Below, in pieces: positions 52,411-64,000 of a stretch of 64,000 bases of DNA. The translations under genes were made by a program, and so were the position numbers. Positions within the stretch are counted from its first letter, which is position 1. Each line of letters starts with the position of its first letter. The stretch covers positions 31,906 through 95,905 of the forward strand of contig NZ_JAMQCO010000011.1 in assembly GCF_023702225.1 (NCBI RefSeq). Direction: 5' to 3'. The DNA comes from Aureimonas altamirensis (lineage in GTDB: Bacteria; Pseudomonadota; Alphaproteobacteria; Rhizobiales; Rhizobiaceae). Below the pieces are notes generated by a model. It searched no databases and was not told the origin of the DNA. It saw only the letters and a program-made list of their open reading frames with translations.

Positions 52411-54081
52411 TCAGCCCGAGCCGGTCAACGGTTCCGGCCGGCCGATGAAATAGCCCTGGGCATAGTCGCAGCCCTCCGCGCGCAGGAAACCCAGCTGCTG
52501 CTCGGTTTCCACCCCCTCCGCCAGCACCTTCAGCCCGACGGCCCGCGCCATCGCCAGGATACCCCGGACGAATGCCCCCGCGCGCATGTCGACGCCCAGA
52601 TCCTGCAGGAGGCTCCTGTCCAGCTTGATCACATCGAGGGGTAGCGCCCGCAGCGCATCGAAGGTGGAGTAGCCGGCGCCGAAATCGTCGAGGGCAAAGC
52701 TGACCCCGATGTCCTTCAGCCTGCGACAGTTCTTCGACGCGACGGCGATATCCTGGATCGTCATCGATTCGGTGATCTCGAGCTCGAGCCGGCCGGGCTC
52801 GATCCGCTCCCGCTCGATGATGCGCTCGACAAGGTCCGGAAACTGCGGATCCTGTACCTCGCGCGCCGAAAGATTTACGGCGACCCTCGCCATATCCGTG
52901 CGGTGCGCATCGCGGCAGGCCTGCCGCAGGACCCAGGCTCCGATCCTGGCGATCTCTCCGTTCTCCTCGGCGATCGGGATGAAGGTCGCCGGCGAGATCA
53001 TGCCGAATGTCGGGTGGTTCCAGCGCAGCAGCGCCTCGCAGGCCCGATGCCCCCCGCTCTTCAGATCGAGTTGCTTCTGGTAATGCAGGACGAACTGGCC
53101 GCGCCCGACCCCCATGCGCAAGTCGAGGCCCAGCGTACGCCGGCGCCGCGCCACCTGGTCCATCTCCGCCTCATAGATCCTGACGCGCGTCTTGGTGGCG
53201 CTCTTGGCGCGGTACATCGCAAGATCGGCATTGCTGATCAGGCTTTCCCTGTTGTCGGCATGGGTCGGATACAGCGCGATCCCGAAGCTTGCGGAGGGGT
53301 TTATGCGGCCATGAGGCAGGGTGACCGGGCTCGATATGGCGGTCTGTAGCCTGCGCACGAAGTCCTGCGCTTCTTCGCAGGAGCGACAAGGCGTAAAACC
53401 GACGAACTCGTCGCCGCCATAACGCGCGACGAGTTCCCCTTCCCGGAGGCATTGGCCGATGCGGAATGCGATCGCACTCAGCAGCATGTCGCCGGCATCA
53501 TGGCCCTGCAGGTCGTTGATGACCTTGAACCCGTCGAGATCGAAGGTCACGACCGCGACCAGGCCGCCATCGCCCTGCGCCCGGGTCAGCGCATCGTCTA
53601 GGCACGCGGCAAGCGCCAGCCGGTTGGGCAGGCCGGTCAGGACGTCGTGTCGCGCAAGATGCGCCAGTTGCTGCATGACGCGGTTGTGCTCCGTCCGGTC
53701 CCGCGTGATCTTGGCGAAGCCGACATGCCGGCGTCTGGCGTCGAAGACCGGCGTGATGACGACATCGGCCCAGAACTCGGTGCCGTCCTTGCGCACTCGC
53801 CATCCGAAGGCCTCGAACCGGCCATCCACCAAGGCTGCGCGCAGGGCCGTCTCCGGCACGCCTGCCTGGCGGTCCTCGTCGCGATAGAAGATCGAGAAGT
53901 GCCGGCCAAGTATCTCGCCCGAACGATAGCCCTTGGCGCGCTCCGCACCTGTGTTCCAGCTGACGATCGTCCCGTCCGGACTGAGCATGTAGATGGCGTA
54001 GTCCGTGATGCCCTCGACGAGCAGCCGGAATTGCCTGTCCTGGCGCTCGATCACCGGCATCATTCCGCTCGACGGTTCCAT
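52411..54081 (-). CDS. PAS-GGDEF-EAL cyclic-di-GMP signalling protein
   Basis: 556 aa. PAS domain at about 15-135 (YRSGEILGRHFSIFY, FAKITRDRTE). GGDEF domain at about 140-300 with intact GGDEF at 222-226; the inhibitory site position reads RxxE (213-216) instead of RxxD. EAL domain at about 320-550 with Glu349-Ala-Leu, NLSAREV, ITESMTIQD, DDFGAGYSTF, KLDRSL and EGVET, all needed for phosphodiesterase activity. Both activities could be functional. No membrane segment, so a cytoplasmic PAS-sensed switch of c-di-GMP. Divergent from kup. Confidence 0.93.
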   Translation of the reverse strand: MEPSSGMMPVIERQDRQFRLLVEGITDYAIYMLSPDGTIVSWNTGAERAKGYRSGEILGRHFSIFYRDEDRQAGVPETALRAALVDGRFEAFGWRVRKDGTEFWADVVITPVFDARRRHVGFAKITRDRTEHNRVMQQLAHLARHDVLTGLPNRLALAACLDDALTRAQGDGGLVAVVTFDLDGFKVINDLQGHDAGDMLLSAIAFRIGQCLREGELVARYGGDEFVGFTPCRSCEEAQDFVRRLQTAISSPVTLPHGRINPSASFGIALYPTHADNRESLISNADLAMYRAKSATKTRVRIYEAEMDQVARRRRTLGLDLRMGVGRGQFVLHYQKQLDLKSGGHRACEALLRWNHPTFGMISPATFIPIAEENGEIARIGAWVLRQACRDAHRTDMARVAVNLSAREVQDPQFPDLVERIIERERIEPGRLELEITESMTIQDIAVASKNCRRLKDIGVSFALDDFGAGYSTFDALRALPLDVIKLDRSLLQDLGVDMRAGAFVRGILAMARAVGLKVLAEGVETEQQLGFLRAEGCDYAQGYFIGRPEPLTGSG

Positions 54082-54302: not shown

Positions 54303-56207
54303 ATGAGCGAAGCCACCGTCGCGAAACCGCCGCGCGAGCATCCGCGCGCGCTGCGGAAGAAGAGCCTGATGGCCACGACCCTCGGCAGCATCGGGGTCGT
54401 CTACGGCGATATCGGCACGAGCCCCCTCTACGCCATGAAGGAATCTCTCCTGCATGTCGGCCATGCGCCGTCGCAGGCGGAAATCCTGGGTATCGTCTCG
54501 CTGCTGGTCTGGTCCCTCATCTTCGTGGTGACGGTGAAATACGTCGTCCTCATCCTGCGTGCCGACAATGAGGGGGAAGGCGGCGCCCTCTCCCTGATGG
54601 CTTTGGCGCAAAAGGCGCTGGTCCGTCCGAGCCGCATCGTCATGGCCCTCGGCATGGTCGGCGCGGCGCTGTTTTACGGCGACGCGATCCTGACGCCGGC
54701 CGTCTCCGTGCTGTCCGCGGTGGAGGGGCTCAAGGTCACGGTTCCGGCGCTCGATCCCTTCATCGTTCCGATTTCCATCGCCATCATCATCGCGCTCTAC
54801 TTCGTCCAGAGTTCCGGCACGGGCCGCGTCGCCGTATTCTTCGGACCCATCATGACGCTGTGGTTCGTCACCCTGGCGGCCATTGGGCTGCTGCACATCG
54901 GCGACGCGCCGGCCATCCTGCAGGCGTTGAACCCACTGCATGCCCTGTGGTTCATGACGAGCCACGGCATCGTCGGCTTTACCGTTCTCGGCTCGGTCTT
55001 CCTGTCGGTCACCGGCGCCGAGGCGCTGTATGCGGATATGGGCCATTTCGGCAAGCGGCCGATCCGGCTGGCCTGGCTGTGGCTGGTCGGCCCTGCGCTG
55101 CTCATCAACTATCTCGGCCAGGGCGCCTTCGCCCTCAGCGATCCGACCGCCCTGCCCAACCTGTTCTTCCTGTCGGCGCCCGAATGGGCGCGGCTGCCGC
55201 TCGTGCTGCTGGCCACGCTGGCCACGATCATCGCCGGGCAAGCCGTCATCACAGGCGCATTCTCCCTGTCGCAGCAGGCTATTCAGCTTGGGTTGCTGCC
55301 GCGACTGCAGATCGAGCACACCTCGGAAACCGAGCATGGTCAGATCTATGTTCCGACCGTCAACTGGCTCATGCTGGCGGGCGTCCTGGCGCTCATCCTC
55401 TTCTTCCAGGATTCATCGTCGCTGGCATCTGCCTACGGCATCGCCGTCACCGGCACGATGATCGTCACCAGCCTCCTGGCCATCGTCGTTCTCGCCTATG
55501 GCTGGAAATGGGGTCTCGGCCTCGCGGTGGCGACGATGGTTCCGTTCCTCATCATCGATTCCGCCTTCCTTGCCGCCAATCTGCTCAAGCTCGCCGATGG
55601 CGGCTACCTGCCGCTGGTCGTCGGGGGGCTGATCGTGCTTCTGATGACCACATGGGTTCGCGGCACCAGCCTTCTGACGGAAAAGGCGCGGCGCGACAGC
55701 CTGCCGATGCACAGCTTCATCAAGAGCATGGCCGGCTCGACATCGGTTACGCGGGTGCCCGGCACCGCCATGTACCTGACCGGCACGCCGGAGATCGTGC
55801 CCACCGCGCTGCTGCACAATTTGAAGCACAATCGGGTCCTGCACGAGCACAACGTGATCGTGACGGTGAAGACGGCGAACTCGCCCTACGTCGCCGAGGC
55901 CGACCGGCTGGTCTATGAATGCCTGTCGCCCTCCTTCGAACGGATCACCCTGCATTACGGGTTCCTGGAAGAGCCGAACCTCGTTCATGCGATGATCCGG
56001 CTTCGGACGCTGGGCATGAAGTTCGACGTGATGTCGACGACCTTCTTCGTCGGAAGGCGGTCGATCCGCCTTGCGCAGAAAAGCGAGATGCCCCGGTGGC
56101 AGGGCAAGCTCTTCAAGAAGATGTCGCGCTATTCCTACGACGCGATCGACTATTTCCGTATTCCGGTCAACCGCGTAGTAGAGCTGGGCACCTACGTCAC
56201 CCTGTGA
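54303..56207 (+). CDS. kup: Kup low-affinity potassium transporter
   Basis: 634 aa, the usual Kup size. GSIGVVYGDIGTSPLYAMKE near residue 30 is the family signature; about twelve membrane segments follow, then a cytoplasmic C-terminal part of about 170 residues. K+ uptake with H+ symport at the inner membrane. The stop lies within a small hairpin (CGTCAC/GTGACG, 56195-56209), 6 bases before the end of convergent thiD. Confidence 0.95.
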   Translation: MSEATVAKPPREHPRALRKKSLMATTLGSIGVVYGDIGTSPLYAMKESLLHVGHAPSQAEILGIVSLLVWSLIFVVTVKYVVLILRADNEGEGGALSLMALAQKALVRPSRIVMALGMVGAALFYGDAILTPAVSVLSAVEGLKVTVPALDPFIVPISIAIIIALYFVQSSGTGRVAVFFGPIMTLWFVTLAAIGLLHIGDAPAILQALNPLHALWFMTSHGIVGFTVLGSVFLSVTGAEALYADMGHFGKRPIRLAWLWLVGPALLINYLGQGAFALSDPTALPNLFFLSAPEWARLPLVLLATLATIIAGQAVITGAFSLSQQAIQLGLLPRLQIEHTSETEHGQIYVPTVNWLMLAGVLALILFFQDSSSLASAYGIAVTGTMIVTSLLAIVVLAYGWKWGLGLAVATMVPFLIIDSAFLAANLLKLADGGYLPLVVGGLIVLLMTTWVRGTSLLTEKARRDSLPMHSFIKSMAGSTSVTRVPGTAMYLTGTPEIVPTALLHNLKHNRVLHEHNVIVTVKTANSPYVAEADRLVYECLSPSFERITLHYGFLEEPNLVHAMIRLRTLGMKFDVMSTTFFVGRRSIRLAQKSEMPRWQGKLFKKMSRYSYDAIDYFRIPVNRVVELGTYVTL

Positions 56208-57069: not shown

Positions 57070-58311
57070 TCAATCCAGATGCCGCGCCACCGCCTCCAGG
57101 AAGTCGTACTCGTCCACCGGCCAGGAGCCTTCGGGCTTGGATTGGGCGCCCCACATGGCGATGACAACCTGCCGGCGCGGATTGATATAGACATACTGCC
57201 CGAAGATTCCGATGGCCGCGAAAGCGCCGTCCTGTTCGAACCCGTCATTCTGCGAAACCGGCCACCACATGTAGCCGTAGTCTACCATGCGCCCGCCGAT
57301 CTCGTGCGGGGCGCCGGCCTGCCGCACCCAGCCTTCCGGCAGGATGCGTTCGCCGCCGATCGTGCCGTCTTCCAGGATGAACTGGCCGAAGCGCGCGTAA
57401 TCGCGCAGCGTCGCGGACAGGCCACTGCCGCCGACCTCGAGCCCGTCCGGGGCTTCCAGCCACCATGTCGCGTCCTGCTCCATGCCGGCGCGCGACCAGA
57501 TCTTCTCCGAAAGGTATTCGGCCAGCGGCTTGCCCGTGGCCGCGGCGACCAGCTCCCCCAATATATGCGTCTCGCCCGTCGAGTAGGTCCAGACCGTGCC
57601 CGGCTCGCCCAGCCGGTCGAGAGAGCCCATGAATTGCAGGATGGTATGCGGCTTCTGCCCGATCTGCAGGTCCAGCATGCGGCGGCGGTCGGAAGCCGGG
57701 TCCGTATAGCGCTCGTTCCATTTGACGCCGGACGACATCAGCAGGATCTGGCGGATCGTCACCCCGTCATAGACGGTTCCCCTGAGCGCCGGCAGGTACG
57801 TGTCAACGCGGTCGTCTATCCGCTCGATCTTCCCGTCCCGGATGGCGGCCCCCACGAGGGTCGAGGTGATCGACTTGGCGATCGACATCGACATCCATCG
57901 CGTCTGCGCGTCGTTGCCGAGCTCGTAATCCTCGAAGACGGTTTCGCCGTTCTTCAGCACCATCAGTCCGGCAACGCGGTTCATCGACATGTAGTCGTAG
58001 AGATCGTAGTTCTTGCCGCCGGACGGTATGACGAGGCCGTCGAGGCTGCGCTGCGACCGCGCGAAGTCGCGCACCGGGCCGCCGGCCGCCACGATGCGGG
58101 TCGGAAACAGCCGGTCTATGTTGCGGAAGGTGCGGACCTGTCGGTCCGGCATCAGCCTGCCGTCATAGATTTCCTGCACCGTGCCGATGTCGAGCGCACC
58201 CTCGCCCCGCTCCTGTGCGAATGCAGGAGAGACGACGCAGGCGAGGGCCAACAGGCCGGCAAAGGCGATCCGCCGCGACGGCCCCTGATATGTGCATCGA
58301 TGTCCGGGCAT
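57070..58311 (-). CDS. exported serine hydrolase, beta-lactamase/class C-like family
   Basis: 413 aa. Signal peptide with RRIAFAGLLALACVVSPAFAQ. The SxxK motif Ser143-Ile-Ala-Lys146 lies in SMSIAKSITSTLVG; a YST element (WTYSTGETHILGELV) occupies the second-motif position. This family holds esterases, D-aminopeptidases and carboxypeptidase-like enzymes rather than true lactamases. ATG at 58311 has GGAGG upstream; ATG at 58338 is an alternative. Divergent from the cell-wall hydrolase gene at 58495. Substrate unknown. Confidence 0.85.
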   Translation of the reverse strand: MPGHRCTYQGPSRRIAFAGLLALACVVSPAFAQERGEGALDIGTVQEIYDGRLMPDRQVRTFRNIDRLFPTRIVAAGGPVRDFARSQRSLDGLVIPSGGKNYDLYDYMSMNRVAGLMVLKNGETVFEDYELGNDAQTRWMSMSIAKSITSTLVGAAIRDGKIERIDDRVDTYLPALRGTVYDGVTIRQILLMSSGVKWNERYTDPASDRRRMLDLQIGQKPHTILQFMGSLDRLGEPGTVWTYSTGETHILGELVAAATGKPLAEYLSEKIWSRAGMEQDATWWLEAPDGLEVGGSGLSATLRDYARFGQFILEDGTIGGERILPEGWVRQAGAPHEIGGRMVDYGYMWWPVSQNDGFEQDGAFAAIGIFGQYVYINPRRQVVIAMWGAQSKPEGSWPVDEYDFLEAVARHLD

Positions 58312-58494
58312 CGGCCTCCCCTCCTGCAGATCAACCATCGGTTGTCCTCTTCCAGACCAAAGCCACAGGCATTGCAAGAGGCGTCGCGTGTGCGATCCAT
58401 TGTCGCACAGGATAGAATCGGGGTTCCCCTGCCCAGTTCTCGCCGCAAGGGGCCAATAGCGCTTGACGTGGGGACAATTGCTTTCACGGATAAG

Positions 58495-59160
58495 ATGAAC
58501 ATATCGGACGTCGCTGCCAGCAAGGCCGTCAGGGCCCTGTCGATGCTTGCTCTATGCACACTCGCCGCCTGCCAATCCACGGATATGGCTGATCTTGCAC
58601 CCAAGAAACAAGTCGATCCGAAAGACAAGGAATGCTTGGCACGCGCCATGTATTTCGAGTCCAACCGGTCCAGTGACGAGGGCATGCTGGCAGTCGGAAC
58701 GGTTGTGATGAACCGGGTCGAATCCGGCAACTATCCGGAATCGGTCTGCGGCGTCGTCGGGCAGAAGAACCAGTTCGCGAGCGGCGTGATGACGCGCCCC
58801 ATGTCCGCCGGCAAGGAGCGCGCGGAGCGGGTGGCGCAGGCGGTTCTGGAGGGCGAGCGCCATACGCTGGTCGGCAACGCCATGTATTTCCACACCGCGG
58901 GTCTCAGCTTCGGGTATCCGAACATGAACTACGTGGCGGTGGCGGGTGGAAACGCCTTTTACCAGCGGCTGTCGCGCCAGTTGCGCGAAGGGCGGCGGAT
59001 GACCTCGCAGAGCGAGGCGCGCAAGGCGCAGGCGGCGCACATGGCCGCCGGCAACCCCATCGTGACGTCGATTGCGCCCGAACCGGAGCCGGCCAACCGG
59101 AATGGCGCCGGCTTCGGCATTCTCCAGGCCCTACAGGCCGCGCAGGTCGACCGGAAGTAG
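58495..59160 (+). CDS. SleB-like cell-wall hydrolase lipoprotein
   Basis: 221 aa. A lipobox LAAC near residue 26 in a type II signal suggests anchoring in a membrane. The Hydrolase_2 (SleB/CwlJ) domain has [29 protein letters not shown] with the catalytic Glu in YFES, then NQFASGV and [11 protein letters not shown]. Acts on peptidoglycan as a lytic transglycosylase or amidase-like enzyme. Its 3' end overlaps the convergent aldehyde dehydrogenase by 30 bases. Confidence 0.9.
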
Positions 59161-60660
59161 CTCTTCCGGGAAGTCCTGGTAAGAGACCGGGCGCAGGAAG
59201 CGGTCGATGGCCATGCCGCCGACCGAGGTGGAGCGCCCGTCCGATGTCGAGGGGAAAGGCCCGCCATGCACCATGGCGGCGGACACCTCGACACCCGTTC
59301 CGAAGCCGTTGACAAGAAGCCGGCCGGCCCTGCGCTCGAGCAGCGGCAGCAGCGCCTTGACCCGCTCCCCATCGGACTGCGCGATATGCAGCGCGATGGT
59401 CAGCTGGCCCTCGATCGTCTCCAGGATTTCGCGCAGTTCGCCTTCATCCCTGCAGCGAACGACCAGCGATGCGGCGCCGAACACCTCGTCATGCAGCGAC
59501 GGATCGGCCTTGAAATCCGCACCCGAAACGGCGAACAGCGCGGGCTGCCCCTGGCATCCCTGCCCCGGCTGCCCGCGGCCGAGTTCCGTGACGGCCGCGT
59601 TGCCGGCAAGTTTCGAAACGCCCTCCGCGAACGCCTTGTGGATGCCGGGCGTCAGCATCGTCTGCGCCGCGATGCCGGCGAGCGCGGCGGCTGCCGCCGT
59701 CTCGAACGCCGTCAGCTCCGCGCCTTCGACGGCCAGGATGAGGCCGGGGTTGGTGCAGAACTGTCCGGAGCCGAGCGTGACCGACTGGGCAAAGGCTGTG
59801 GCGATGGCCTCACCCCGTTCCGCCAGCGCGCCCGGCATCAGCAGCACGGGATTGATCGAGCTCATCTCGGCATAGACGGGGATCGGCACCGGCCTTTCCT
59901 GCGCGATCTTCATGAAGGCGGTGCCGCCCCCGCGAGACCCGGTGAAGCCGACGGCCTTGATGCGGGCATCGGCCACGAGGCCCTGGCCGATCGTGCGGCC
60001 GGTATCGAACAGAAGCGCGAAGGTGCCGGCCGGCATGCCCTTGTCGGCCACGGCCTTCTGCACGGCACGTCCCACCAGTTCAGACGTGCCGAGATGCGCG
60101 GAATGGGCCTTGGTCACGACCGGGCAGCCTGCGGCCAGAGCCGAGGCGGTGTCGCCGCCCGCGATCGAGAACGCCAGCGGAAAATTCGAGGCGGAGAAGA
60201 CGGCCACGGGGCCGAGGCCGATCATATGCGCACGCAGTTCCGGCCGGCGCGCGGGCTTGCGCGTCTCGTCCGCCGCATCCTTGACCTTCCGCAGGAAGTC
60301 TCCCTTGCGGACGATGTCTGCGAAGAAGCGTAGCTGGCCGACGGTGCGGCCGCGCTCGCCTTCGATGCGCCCGCGCGCAAGGCCGCTTTCGGCCACGCAG
60401 CGCTCGATCAGTTCGTCGCCGAGGGCCATGATGTTGTCGGCGATGGCTTCCAGGAAGGCGGCGCGCTCTTCCAGCGGGCGGCCGCGGTAATCGTCGAAGG
60501 CGGCCTCGGCCAGCGCGCAGGCTTGCTCCAGGTCGGCCTGCGTGGCGCCGCCGAAAGCAGGCTCGAGCGTCGTGCCGTTGGTGGGGTCGAAGGCGCGGGC
60601 TTCGCCATTGGCGCCGCGCACGGCCTTGCCGCCAATGAGGTTTTCGCCGGTAATCGGCAT
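59131..60660 (-). CDS. aldehyde dehydrogenase, 2,5-dioxovalerate (ketoglutarate semialdehyde) type
   Basis: 509 aa. Catalytic Cys302 in [10 protein letters not shown], Glu265 in VYAEMSS, cofactor loop [10 protein letters not shown], and N-terminal [10 protein letters not shown] typical of the KGSADH branch (GQFCTNPG is characteristic). Converts 2-ketoglutarate semialdehyde to 2-oxoglutarate in sugar-acid, hydroxyproline or glucarate pathways, which are otherwise absent from this window. ATG at 60660; longer in-frame extension crosses the likely operator at 60712-60737. Confidence 0.9.
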
Positions 60661-61082
60661 ATGGGCTCTCCCTTGAAATCGATCCTTTTCGCCAGGAAGC
60701 GGCGAAACAATGGATTTTGCAGACAATGTGCAAATCCACGGCGCATACCTTTCGCAAGGGAAGGTCGGCGTCAAGGCGCCGGGCGAGTGGGCGGTTCGTG
60801 GGCGGTCGGCGAAAGCGGCACGTCCCCCGTACCAAGAATTGTCGGCGATGTCGGCAACAAACGCTTATCTCACTTTGCATCGTCGGTTGAATACCAGTCC
60901 GCGATCCGACACCACGTGCAAAAAATGGTCCCTTGTTGCCATCTTATCACCACAGATTGACGTTCAGCGGGAATGGATTTAGTTTGAGGCGTGACAGACC
61001 TTTCCCGCGACTACGCGGCTGCTGTCGGAACGGTTCATAGCGTAAACACTCTGCCTGTTTTCTCATTGTCGATGAGGATGGC
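60661..61082. other. 422-bp divergent control region without a supportable gene
   Basis: Lies between the aldehyde dehydrogenase (leftwards) and the multicopper oxidase (rightwards). It contains a promoter-proximal inverted repeat at 60712-60737 and is less GC-rich from about 60840 to 61080, where the oxidase promoter should lie. Open frames exist (for example 60710-60982) but have no recognisable content or clear RBS. Confidence 0.6.
60712..60737. promoter_or_regulatory. inverted repeat upstream of the aldehyde dehydrogenase
   Basis: GGATTTTGCA (60712-60721) faces TGCAAATCC (60729-60737), imperfect by one extra T. It lies 52 bases before the dehydrogenase ATG, where an operator for a GntR- or LacI-type sugar-acid regulator would be expected. 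No such regulator gene is in the window. Confidence 0.45.
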
Positions 61083-64000
61083 ATGCGCGCTCGTCTTATA
61101 CGAACCGGGCTCCTGACCGCCCTGGCGTCACTTGTGCTTACGTTGCAAGCGCATCCGCAGTCTCAGCAACAGTCGTCTACTACGGCCGGTCGTATTCTGA
61201 GGGCGGATATTGTCGCCTTCGACCAACCGCTCGTGTATAATCGCTTCGGCTCCTTCAACCCGTTCGGGATGATCTTTGCGCTTGGCCGCGACGTTGCTTC
61301 ATCCGAGCAAGGGGTGGCGCCGGTGCGTGCCCACACGGCAGAGGCCTGCGCCGGCCTGACCGGGGCCGAGGGCATCGACACACCGGTGGCCGACCGGGTG
61401 CGGGCCGGCAGCGGCGGCCAGGCGCTGGTGCCCGGCAAAGTCCGCCTCAAGGATTGCAAGCGCGCCCGCCCGCTGGTGCTGCGCGCCAATGTGGGCGACA
61501 CGCTGGAAATCACCGTCACAAACCTGCTGCGCCCGCGCCTGCCCGGCCTGACCAGGGATTTCTGCCGCCAGGGCAACCCGGCCTTTGCCGTGCAGCCGGG
61601 CGCGCCGACCGCCCCATACGCCTATCTGTGCGCCGGTGATGGCGAGCATGACCCGCTGGGCGCCGAGATCGCCGACCCCGAGGCCGCGCCCGAGCCGCCG
61701 GAGCCGCCCGAGGGCGGCCTGAACTATGACTGGCCGGCGACGCGCAATCTTTCATTCGTCATTCCGGGGCTCGAGCTTGCCGAAGGGTCGCATCCGGCCT
61801 GCCGGGGGCTGGACGCCGTGACGCCCGGCGGCAGCTTCGTCTGCCGCTACGCCATCGAGCGCGAGGGTACGCATCTCTTTTCCAGCTTTGCCGCACCGTC
61901 GGGTGGCGAGGGCGATGCCGGATCGGCGATCCACGGTCTTTTCGGCGCGCTGATCGTCGAGCCGGAGGGCAGCCGCTGGTACCGCAGCCAGGTGACGCAA
62001 ACCGCCTTCGACGCCGTATGGGGCAAGGATGCCGGCCGGGGCAACGGCGCGCGCATCGCCAGCTTCGACTATGAGGCAAGCGTCGCGGGCGTGCCGGTTC
62101 TCAACCTGCTGCAGGAAGGGGCGGGCGGGTTCCGCATCGTCCATGGCGATCTCAACGCCGTGGTGGTGCCACCCCAGGATGCCCCGCACGTGGCCGGCGG
62201 GCTGGATGAAACCGCCATGTATGACGGCGCCGGAAAAGCCTATCGCGAGTTCACCGTCATTTTCCATGACGAGTTGAAGACCTATTACAGCCGTAACTTC
62301 AAGGAGTTGGAGGATTATTCGCAGTTCTCCGGCGTCGGCGACGGCTTCGCCATCAATTACGGCGCCAGCGGCATGGGCTCGCTGCTCTTGGCCAACCGCA
62401 AGGGCATGGGACCGGCCGCCGACTGCGTCGAATGCGTGTATGAGGAGTTCTTCCTGCAATCCTGGGCCAATGGCGACCCGGCCTTGCGCGAGAGCTTTCC
62501 GGACGACCCGTCCAACGTGCACCACTCCTACCTCAATGACCGGGTGGTGTTTCGCAATTTCCATGTCGGCAAGGAAACCCACGTCTTCCACCTGCACGCC
62601 CATCAATGGCTGGCGGGCGACGGCACGATGGCCAGCAACCAGGAATACGGGTCCTATCTCGACTCGCAGACCATCGGCCCCCAGCAGGGCATGACCTACA
62701 AGATCTACAATCCGGCGGCGGCCTACCGGCGCAGCCTGGACGGGGCCGGCGCGCAGGCGCGCGAGCGCCTTGGCTGGTGGTCGGCCCTGGGCTCCGGCAA
62801 TCGCAACCGCACACCCGGCGATTCGATCTTCCACTGCCATCTCTACCCGCATTTCGCGCAGGGCATGTGGGCGTTGTGGCGCGTCCATGACGTGATCGAG
62901 GATGGGTCGCGCAGGTTGCCGGACGGCCAGGCGCACGAGGGCCTTTCGCTGCGCCTTGGCGATGTCGGCCCGGCGCGGCGCGGCACCGACATCGCCACCG
63001 GGGCCCCCGGCCCCGGCACGCCGGTGCCCGGGCTCGTGCCCCTGCCCGAGTATGCGCTGCCGCCGCTGCCCACCTATGGCCAGAAGGGCTTTCCCGGCTA
63101 TCCGTTCTATATCGACGCCGAGCCGGGCCACCGCGTATCGCAGCCACCCATGGACATGGCGCGGGCGGCCGATGGAACGGCGATGGATGGGGGCTTGCCG
63201 CGCCATATCGTCAAATCGGGTGAGCGCTCGATGACCGGCAAGCCGGTGGCCGAGTTGGTCGCCGACATCGGCAAGGAGGCCGCCGGCAAGCTGCTGGTGC
63301 GCCGAGCGCTGGCGCTGGCCGATTTCAGCGTGCATATCGACAAGGCTTTCATCGAAACCAAGGCTCCCGATGGCACGCCGCTCGAACGGCGCGCCATGGC
63401 ATTCCACTCCGGCGGGGAGGGTGTCGACGAGATGCCCTTGCTCAGCGATGCGCGCGGCAACCCGATGACGGCCGTGGAGGGCACCTATGCCAGCCTGCGC
63501 ATCGGCCGCCAGGCGGGCGCGGCGCCGGCGCAGTTGGCCCCGACCGCATCGGTGGCCGATCTGGATCCCGACCCGACGGAAGATCAGCTTGCCGCCCTGG
63601 CCGGCAACGCGCCCTTCCTGGTCAATGGCGCACCGCCCAAGGCGGGAGCCCCGTTTGCCGACCCCTGCGGCGGGCCGAGGGTGCTCAGCCATTATGCGCC
63701 GCCGCTGAGCCCCGGCGCGCTGCTGGACAATGGCGCGCTCAGGCAGATTCCCGACCGGCTGACGCTCGACCCTGCCGCCAACCTGTTCCAGCCCGACCCG
63801 ATGCTGGCGGGCTTTCGCCGCTACGAGGCGTCGGTCGTCGAGCTGGACCTGGTCGTCAACAAGGCGGGCTGGCACGATCCGCAAAGCCGGATCAACGTGC
63901 TGACGGCCGAGGTCGACACCTTCAAGAACAAGGTGCGGGGCGATGCCGAGCCGTTCTTCTTCCGCGCCCATTCGGGCGACTGCATCGAGTTTCGCCACAC
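61083..64000 (+). CDS. giant multicopper oxidase, MnxG-like (candidate Mn(II) oxidase), cut by window end
   Basis: At least 972 codons are open to the right edge with no stop, so the protein is far longer than laccases or CueO (about 500 aa). Signal peptide MRARLIRTGLLTALASLVLT. Copper motifs: His500-x2-His503-x-His505-x-His507 in HVFHLHAHQW, and His584-Cys585-His586-x3-His590-x4-Met595 in HCHLYPHFAQGMW (T1 ligands Cys585, His590, Met595). SGDCIEFRH appears at the very end. Size and motif placement in the first half match the MnxG family of Mn oxidases rather than bilirubin oxidase-like proteins. Exported. ATG at 61083; codon use of the first 70 residues is less GC-rich than the rest. Confidence 0.82.
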   Translation, partial: MRARLIRTGLLTALASLVLTLQAHPQSQQQSSTTAGRILRADIVAFDQPLVYNRFGSFNPFGMIFALGRDVASSEQGVAPVRAHTAEACAGLTGAEGIDTPVADRVRAGSGGQALVPGKVRLKDCKRARPLVLRANVGDTLEITVTNLLRPRLPGLTRDFCRQGNPAFAVQPGAPTAPYAYLCAGDGEHDPLGAEIADPEAAPEPPEPPEGGLNYDWPATRNLSFVIPGLELAEGSHPACRGLDAVTPGGSFVCRYAIEREGTHLFSSFAAPSGGEGDAGSAIHGLFGALIVEPEGSRWYRSQVTQTAFDAVWGKDAGRGNGARIASFDYEASVAGVPVLNLLQEGAGGFRIVHGDLNAVVVPPQDAPHVAGGLDETAMYDGAGKAYREFTVIFHDELKTYYSRNFKELEDYSQFSGVGDGFAINYGASGMGSLLLANRKGMGPAADCVECVYEEFFLQSWANGDPALRESFPDDPSNVHHSYLNDRVVFRNFHVGKETHVFHLHAHQWLAGDGTMASNQEYGSYLDSQTIGPQQGMTYKIYNPAAAYRRSLDGAGAQARERLGWWSALGSGNRNRTPGDSIFHCHLYPHFAQGMWALWRVHDVIEDGSRRLPDGQAHEGLSLRLGDVGPARRGTDIATGAPGPGTPVPGLVPLPEYALPPLPTYGQKGFPGYPFYIDAEPGHRVSQPPMDMARAADGTAMDGGLPRHIVKSGERSMTGKPVAELVADIGKEAAGKLLVRRALALADFSVHIDKAFIETKAPDGTPLERRAMAFHSGGEGVDEMPLLSDARGNPMTAVEGTYASLRIGRQAGAAPAQLAPTASVADLDPDPTEDQLAALAGNAPFLVNGAPPKAGAPFADPCGGPRVLSHYAPPLSPGALLDNGALRQIPDRLTLDPAANLFQPDPMLAGFRRYEASVVELDLVVNKAGWHDPQSRINVLTAEVDTFKNKVRGDAEPFFFRAHSGDCIEFRH

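Follow-up and report, generated by a model that had tools for sequence, protein, structure and literature searches.

In the accessible literature, MnxG-type multicopper oxidases have tested activity in two branches, Bacillus Mnx and Pseudomonas MnxG, and both are reported to oxidize manganese. The Bacillus complex made from mnxEFG oxidizes Mn(II) as well as Mn(III) and is described as requiring MnxE and MnxF alongside MnxG (PMC5622069). In Pseudomonas putida GB-1, deletion of mnxG reportedly made Mn oxidation an order of magnitude slower, whereas deletion of mcoA did not slow it and the double deletion produced no oxide (PMC11930936). The GB-1 operon is given as mnxG, a YVTN beta-propeller gene, two successive SCO1/SenC genes, a gene for an ABC-type substrate-binding protein with a cytochrome c domain, and SurA (PMC11409713, PMC8218464). 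For Alphaproteobacteria, the accessible text of several papers names other Mn oxidases, either haem peroxidases (Erythrobacter, Aurantimonas, Roseobacter) or multicopper oxidases of other kinds, for example MoxA- or CotA-like enzymes (PMC9224936, PMC9476993, PMC11708043). A marine Rhizobiaceae MAG from a Mn-oxidizing enrichment is reported with moxA- and cueO-like genes (PMC9476993), the Georhizobium enzyme reported to oxidize Mn is a three-cupredoxin multicopper oxidase of a different type from MnxG (PMC11708043), and for Mn-oxidizing Mesorhizobium one laccase-like gene is reported in the type strain (PMC4505141). The accessible part of a report on three isolates, one of them a Paracoccus, mentions no gene annotated as mnxG (PMC4861733). 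No description of the alphaproteobacterial MnxG-type branch treated here, or of its operon, was found in the accessible text of the openly licensed literature, which is no proof of absence.

The window analyzed here, meaning the whole 64,000-nucleotide stretch (G000:C3:31906-95905), comes from an Aureimonas altamirensis genome of 4.33 Mb in 41 contigs. An ATG at 61083 on the plus strand opens a frame of 972 residues without a stop up to the window end. The contig runs beyond this point, and the 972 residues are the N-terminal part of a 2241-residue MnxG-like oxidase encoded by an intact frame of 2241 codons (G000:C3:92988-99710 plus stop, equal to L003:8989-15714 including the stop). A sequence-only reading of the window had proposed a giant, MnxG-like multicopper oxidase of at least 972 residues at 61083-64000; the frame stands, the motifs it named lie where it placed them (within HVFHLHAHQW at 500-509 and HCHLYPHFAQGMW at 584-596, and SGDCIEFRH at 964-972), and the giant MnxG-like character is borne out by sequence, motif order, predicted fold, and operon partners. 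The N-terminal stretch MRARLIRTGLLTALASLVLTLQA looks like a signal peptide by inspection. Features of the gene, with copper roles that we take from multicopper oxidases in general, are as follows.

61083..64000, plus strand: MnxG-like multicopper oxidase, residues 1-972 of 2241 (open reading frame, continued to G000:C3:99710)
61083..61151, plus strand: signal-peptide-like N-terminus, residues 1-23 (by inspection)
61191..63002, plus strand: unit 1, residues 37-640, ends set by eye (unit profile comparison, predicted fold)
62580..62609, plus strand: C-type motif HVFHLHAHQW; H500 type 1, H503 and H505 trinuclear (motif search)
62832..62870, plus strand: C-type motif HCHLYPHFAQGMW; C585, H590, and M595 type 1, H584 and H586 trinuclear (motif search)
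63750..64000, plus strand: start of unit 2, residue 890 onward (unit profile comparison, motifs)
Beyond the window, in L003, plus strand: N-type motif QHIHLVKFD, residues 996-1004 (motif search)
Beyond the window, in L003, plus strand: N-type motif FTHDHF, residues 1116-1121, within FTHDHFGPSSIQQHG, residues 1116-1130 (motif search)

All 12 expected copper ligands are kept (H500, H503, H505, H584, C585, H586, H590, M595, H997, H999, H1118, and H1120). The C-type motifs (HVFHLHAH and HCHLYPHFAQGM) precede the N-type motifs (QHIHLVKFD and FTHDHF), in the order 500 < 584 < 997 < 1118, which is common to Bacillus-type and Pseudomonas MnxG and is also that of Priestia MnxG. Both N-type motifs, the remaining H-x-H motifs that the earlier reading would seek downstream, are present in the full-length protein; their absence was to count as refutation of that reading, so this check leaves it standing. 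Its remark that such a permuted order sets Mn-oxidase-type proteins apart holds for the MnxG branch; multicopper oxidases outside it that are reported to oxidize Mn, the Georhizobium enzyme for one, belong to a different type. Among 86 proteins longer than 1500 residues, this one included, drawn from the 80 named relatives described below and from further loci, 83 have the four motif patterns in order, and the other three (L096 and two Pseudomonadaceae) keep the four H-x-H pairs with different adjoining residues; the set counts apparent duplicates (L030/L098, L033/L094, L039/L165) and L079, shortened by a frame break. It also holds two Jiella avicenniae loci, L067 and L074, which lie on two contigs and start with identical bases. 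In the row of the Bacillus MnxG structure 9bxa, H590 of HCHLYPH aligns with the A of HCHLYPA; the entry is titled Mnx H340A.

The protein consists of three tandem two-cupredoxin units (hhalign between the unit alignments, 98.1, 99.7, and 99.7). Copper ligands occur in just two of the six half-units, the second one of unit 1 and the first one of unit 2, and the remaining four have no H-x-H pair. Because only those two half-units keep ligands, a single site made up of a type 1 copper and a trinuclear cluster would form at the unit 1/unit 2 junction, as the fold match also suggests. Bacillus MnxG (9bxa) ranked first among fold matches for both predicted models, the copper core being modeled on the relative L045 rather than on the protein itself and unit 3 being left unmodeled. 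Ceruloplasmin came second among the Foldseek matches of that L045 copper core, and factor V and VIII chains were also among the fold matches. Ceruloplasmin is likewise a single multi-cupredoxin chain; its trinuclear site lies between the first and last domains, whereas the predicted site here lies between units 1 and 2.

At the sequence level, the NCBIfam MnxG model NF041487 matched the first 972 residues with an E-value of 2.3e-98 and the full protein with 4.6e-158. The full-length match falls in six stretches and scores 527.8 bits against a curated cut-off of 3100, so the protein is not the Pseudomonas MnxG equivalog. In a PDB sequence search (E up to 0.01), 9bxa was the sole match (E 2.8e-68); strong copper-core pieces are co-linear along both chains, and the first 150 residues show a weak match to the third unit of 9bxa, as tandem repeats can. 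No Pfam family reached its cut-off on the oxidase: a search of the full protein (E up to 0.1) found no Cu-oxidase domain, and on the 972 residues Cu-oxidase_2 scored 15.7 bits, below its curated cut-off of 20.4, so the protein does not class as an ordinary laccase or CueO. With Pseudomonas MnxG (P. putida GB-1 type) the protein shares the giant chain and motif order, but identity is 29% over the blastp pieces (42-55% in core pieces) and its 2241 residues compare with frames of 1946-1950 codons in loci L163/L162. With Bacillus Mnx (MnxG with MnxE and MnxF; 9bxa is from strain PL-12) it shares a multi-cupredoxin chain with C-type before N-type motifs, but it is about 1000 residues longer than the 1227-residue Bacillus MnxG. 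Elsewhere in the genome there is one ordinary multicopper oxidase match, and a haem peroxidase search returned no match, its control being likewise silent.

Three genes with overlapping ends lie directly 3' of the oxidase gene.

From the ATG at L003:15696 (searched from 15711): propeller-like protein, about 597 residues, without a Pfam or NCBIfam family
Third in the operon: SCO1/SenC protein, 193 residues, with CTSLCP (E 6.4e-17)
Fourth in the operon: cytochrome c with a binding-protein domain, 453 residues, one CSGCH haem motif

The sequence-only reading had pointed downstream for partner genes, and those found are arranged as in the mnxG operon of Pseudomonas. The label "propeller" is provisional, coming from a weak likeness to the gene at the same place in that operon, and the 453-residue protein has below-cut-off matches to Peripla_BP_6 (E 3.5e-5) and Cytochrom_C (E 0.032). 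Queried with these proteins, the Pseudomonadaceae locus L163, whose MnxG scores above the curated cut-off, showed the same gene order, its propeller matching at a phmmer E-value of only 3e-6; L162 gave no propeller match, although L133, which covers less of that genome, did (6e-5). In contrast to the Pseudomonas operon, with its two SCO genes and SurA, there is one SCO gene here, and next in line stands neither a second SCO gene nor SurA but a 522-residue subtilase (PF00082, E 5.4e-19; L003:19442 to L004:1010).

A scan of species genomes found at least 485 relatives, of which the best 80 by similarity to the query were kept and named, so they are not a fair sample. Within these 80, 57 loci have at least 5 kb downstream: all three partners follow in order in 28, some in 17, and none in 12, and a cytochrome c gene lies downstream in 36. 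In two loci of the group without downstream partners, Leptothrix L097 and Sphaerotilus L111, SCO and cytochrome matches lie upstream on the opposite strand. The loci of Nitrosomonas mobilis and Nitrobacter winogradskyi (L048, L093) contain all four operon genes in order. The subtilase has no relative in the best 80 of the at least 485 loci. On the Shinella plasmid L191, an annotated S8 peptidase gene and a trypsin-like gene lie on the other side of the MnxG-like gene. Taken together, sequence, motif order, fold, and operon mark the protein as a true but divergent MnxG-type protein whose operon is of the Pseudomonas type; it does not represent a new kind of system.

Upstream, the interval just 5' of the oxidase gene contains or is overlapped by two open reading frames, 90 and 145 codons long, and beyond them are ordinary neighbors identified with Pfam.

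52411-54081, minus strand: PAS-GGDEF-EAL protein
54303-56207, plus strand: K+ transporter
57070-58377, minus strand: beta-lactamase-family protein
To 59160, plus strand: Cell Wall Hydrolase
59131-60774, minus strand: aldehyde dehydrogenase

Priestia MnxE and MnxF, labeled by position, matched none of 22,986 open reading frames, the upstream ones included, although very divergent small proteins could escape such a search; this fits the earlier statement that no MnxE/MnxF-like genes stand upstream. The 90- and 145-codon frames matched only themselves among the same 22,986. The queries come from a Priestia megaterium plasmid (L189:5051-9378), where two small genes are followed by a 1228-residue MnxG in an mnxEFG-like set. 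A sigma-54 promoter pattern (up to three mismatches) had no plus-strand match within 58986-61082; over the whole window it gave 85 matches against 101 expected by chance.

The reading that we consider the most probable, with clear room for doubt, is that of an exported MnxG-type oxidase which, at the copper site between units 1 and 2, would take electrons from a metal ion, Mn(II) being the likeliest, with O2 as acceptor and operon partners aiding. By analogy with MnxG, Mn(II) is the likely substrate, and the possible Mn(II) oxidase of the sequence-only reading stays a candidate. Electrons would pass from the metal ion to the type 1 copper, then to the trinuclear cluster, where O2 would be reduced to water; outside the cell or at its surface, Mn(II) may be converted by way of Mn(III) into Mn(IV) oxide. 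The SCO-type chaperone encoded in the operon would load the copper site, and the propeller-like protein and the cytochrome c/binding-domain fusion presumably serve in supporting roles. Counted against a Mn oxidase are the score of 528 of 3100 bits, the absence of a second SCO gene and SurA next in line, and the lack of a sigma-54 match upstream. The Mn(II) assignment is less certain because identity to Pseudomonas MnxG is 29%, because no MnxE/MnxF relatives were found, and because nitrifiers and methanotrophs account for 17 of the best 80 of at least 485 relatives (Nitrosomonas, 5; Nitrospira or Nitrospirales, 6; Nitrobacter, 1; methanotrophs, 5).

Those 17 relatives, which fall in several tree branches, speak for a tentative alternative that we rate distinctly below the Mn(II) reading: the same architecture and copper chemistry may serve another electron donor, whether Fe(II), Cu(I), or some small molecule that nitrifiers, methanotrophs, and methylotrophs encounter. 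The operon cytochrome c, with its weak binding-protein match, could handle a small molecule. However, the best 80 were chosen by similarity to the query, both branches with tested activity are reported to oxidize Mn, and Nitrospira MAGs of a Mn-removing sand-filter inoculum are reported with MnxG (PMC12070406), so Mn may be what connects the nitrifiers to these genes. It is improbable that electrons from Mn(II) go to the operon cytochrome c instead of, or besides, O2 and feed the respiratory chain; a cytochrome c with a binding-like part does stand in this operon and in that of Pseudomonas (PMC11409713) and recurs downstream in the 36 of 57 loci given above, but all eight trinuclear-site histidines are kept, pointing to O2. 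It is very improbable that the protein is a decayed or structural cupredoxin-repeat protein without oxidase activity, like coagulation factors V and VIII, whose chains are among its fold matches and whose likeness the four half-units without H-x-H pairs might recall, since every ligand is kept in both active half-units, the four H-x-H pairs persist in the 86 proteins, and the frame is intact over 2241 codons.

The distribution of the gene is patchy. In the genus, an MnxG-type gene was found in 1 of 21 genomes, this one; the MnxG model matched 8 of 199 genomes of the family and 4 of 398 of the phylum (one barely), this genome counted in both. Three genomes (G642, G701, and G720) have more than one MnxG-type copy each. 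In a search for McoA, a Leptothrix L108 protein queried against 298 genomes (E up to 1e-20, at most two candidates scored per genome) matched, among the rows listed, the same 45 genomes as the MnxG model. Leptothrix discophora CCM 2812 carries two MnxG-like copies, L097 and L108; both were considered as MofA and set aside, no mofB-like gene appearing among the adjoining open reading frame starts read by eye. When 20 Pseudomonadaceae genomes with mnxG were searched with the protein for a second relative, McoA, every candidate being scored, the resulting rows fell within MnxG genes.

A quick maximum-likelihood tree was built from 80 copper cores, after exclusion of ten named loci and of sequences under 1500 residues; it groups the protein with 34 alphaproteobacterial sequences as their sister (SH-aLRT 94, just below the program's star). 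The protein splits off first in this 35-row clade, on a long terminal branch (0.84). The clade holds the MnxG-like proteins of Paracoccus, Methylobacterium, Mesorhizobium, Jiella, Antarcticirhabdus, and others, many with the same operon. Pseudomonas and Priestia MnxG lie far from the protein, and the long branches of both make the root unsure.

This uneven occurrence, a shift in G+C, and a phage-type integrase located some 5 kb past the cytochrome gene together suggest that the operon was gained horizontally. The first part of the gene has a G+C of 0.66-0.67, which rises to 0.70-0.71 from L003:12001 on; 4-kb blocks of the window have 0.61-0.69. In two congeners searched for an empty site, the flanking genes matched scattered places. 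An island-like run at L004:4686-11127, some 4-10 kb after the subtilase, contains an integrase (PF00589; L004 4686-5315, minus strand), an HTH protein with a sub-threshold ASCH match, and a GNAT-domain protein. Relatives were also found in 30 plasmid records, eight of them from Paracoccus and others from genera such as Methylobacterium and Shinella. The top 11 of these plasmid matches, from genera that we take to be all Alphaproteobacteria, are annotated "hypothetical protein"; the label "multicopper oxidase domain-containing protein" appears on several of the weaker matches. A speculative and rather doubtful extension is that these genes form a separate, widespread, largely unnamed MnxG-type branch, spread horizontally among alphaproteobacteria, nitrifiers, and methanotrophs, which would act on a non-Mn substrate shared by these lifestyles or use Mn(II) with a dedicated cytochrome c for energy.

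One metagenome study, in its accessible text, used Bacillus MnxG as its sole query of the MnxG kind (PMC6839870); surveys of this design may miss or misplace such genes. With the best plasmid matches annotated as hypothetical, a whole MnxG-type operon in Alphaproteobacteria would provide a genetic handle for testing which organisms form Mn oxides in nature.
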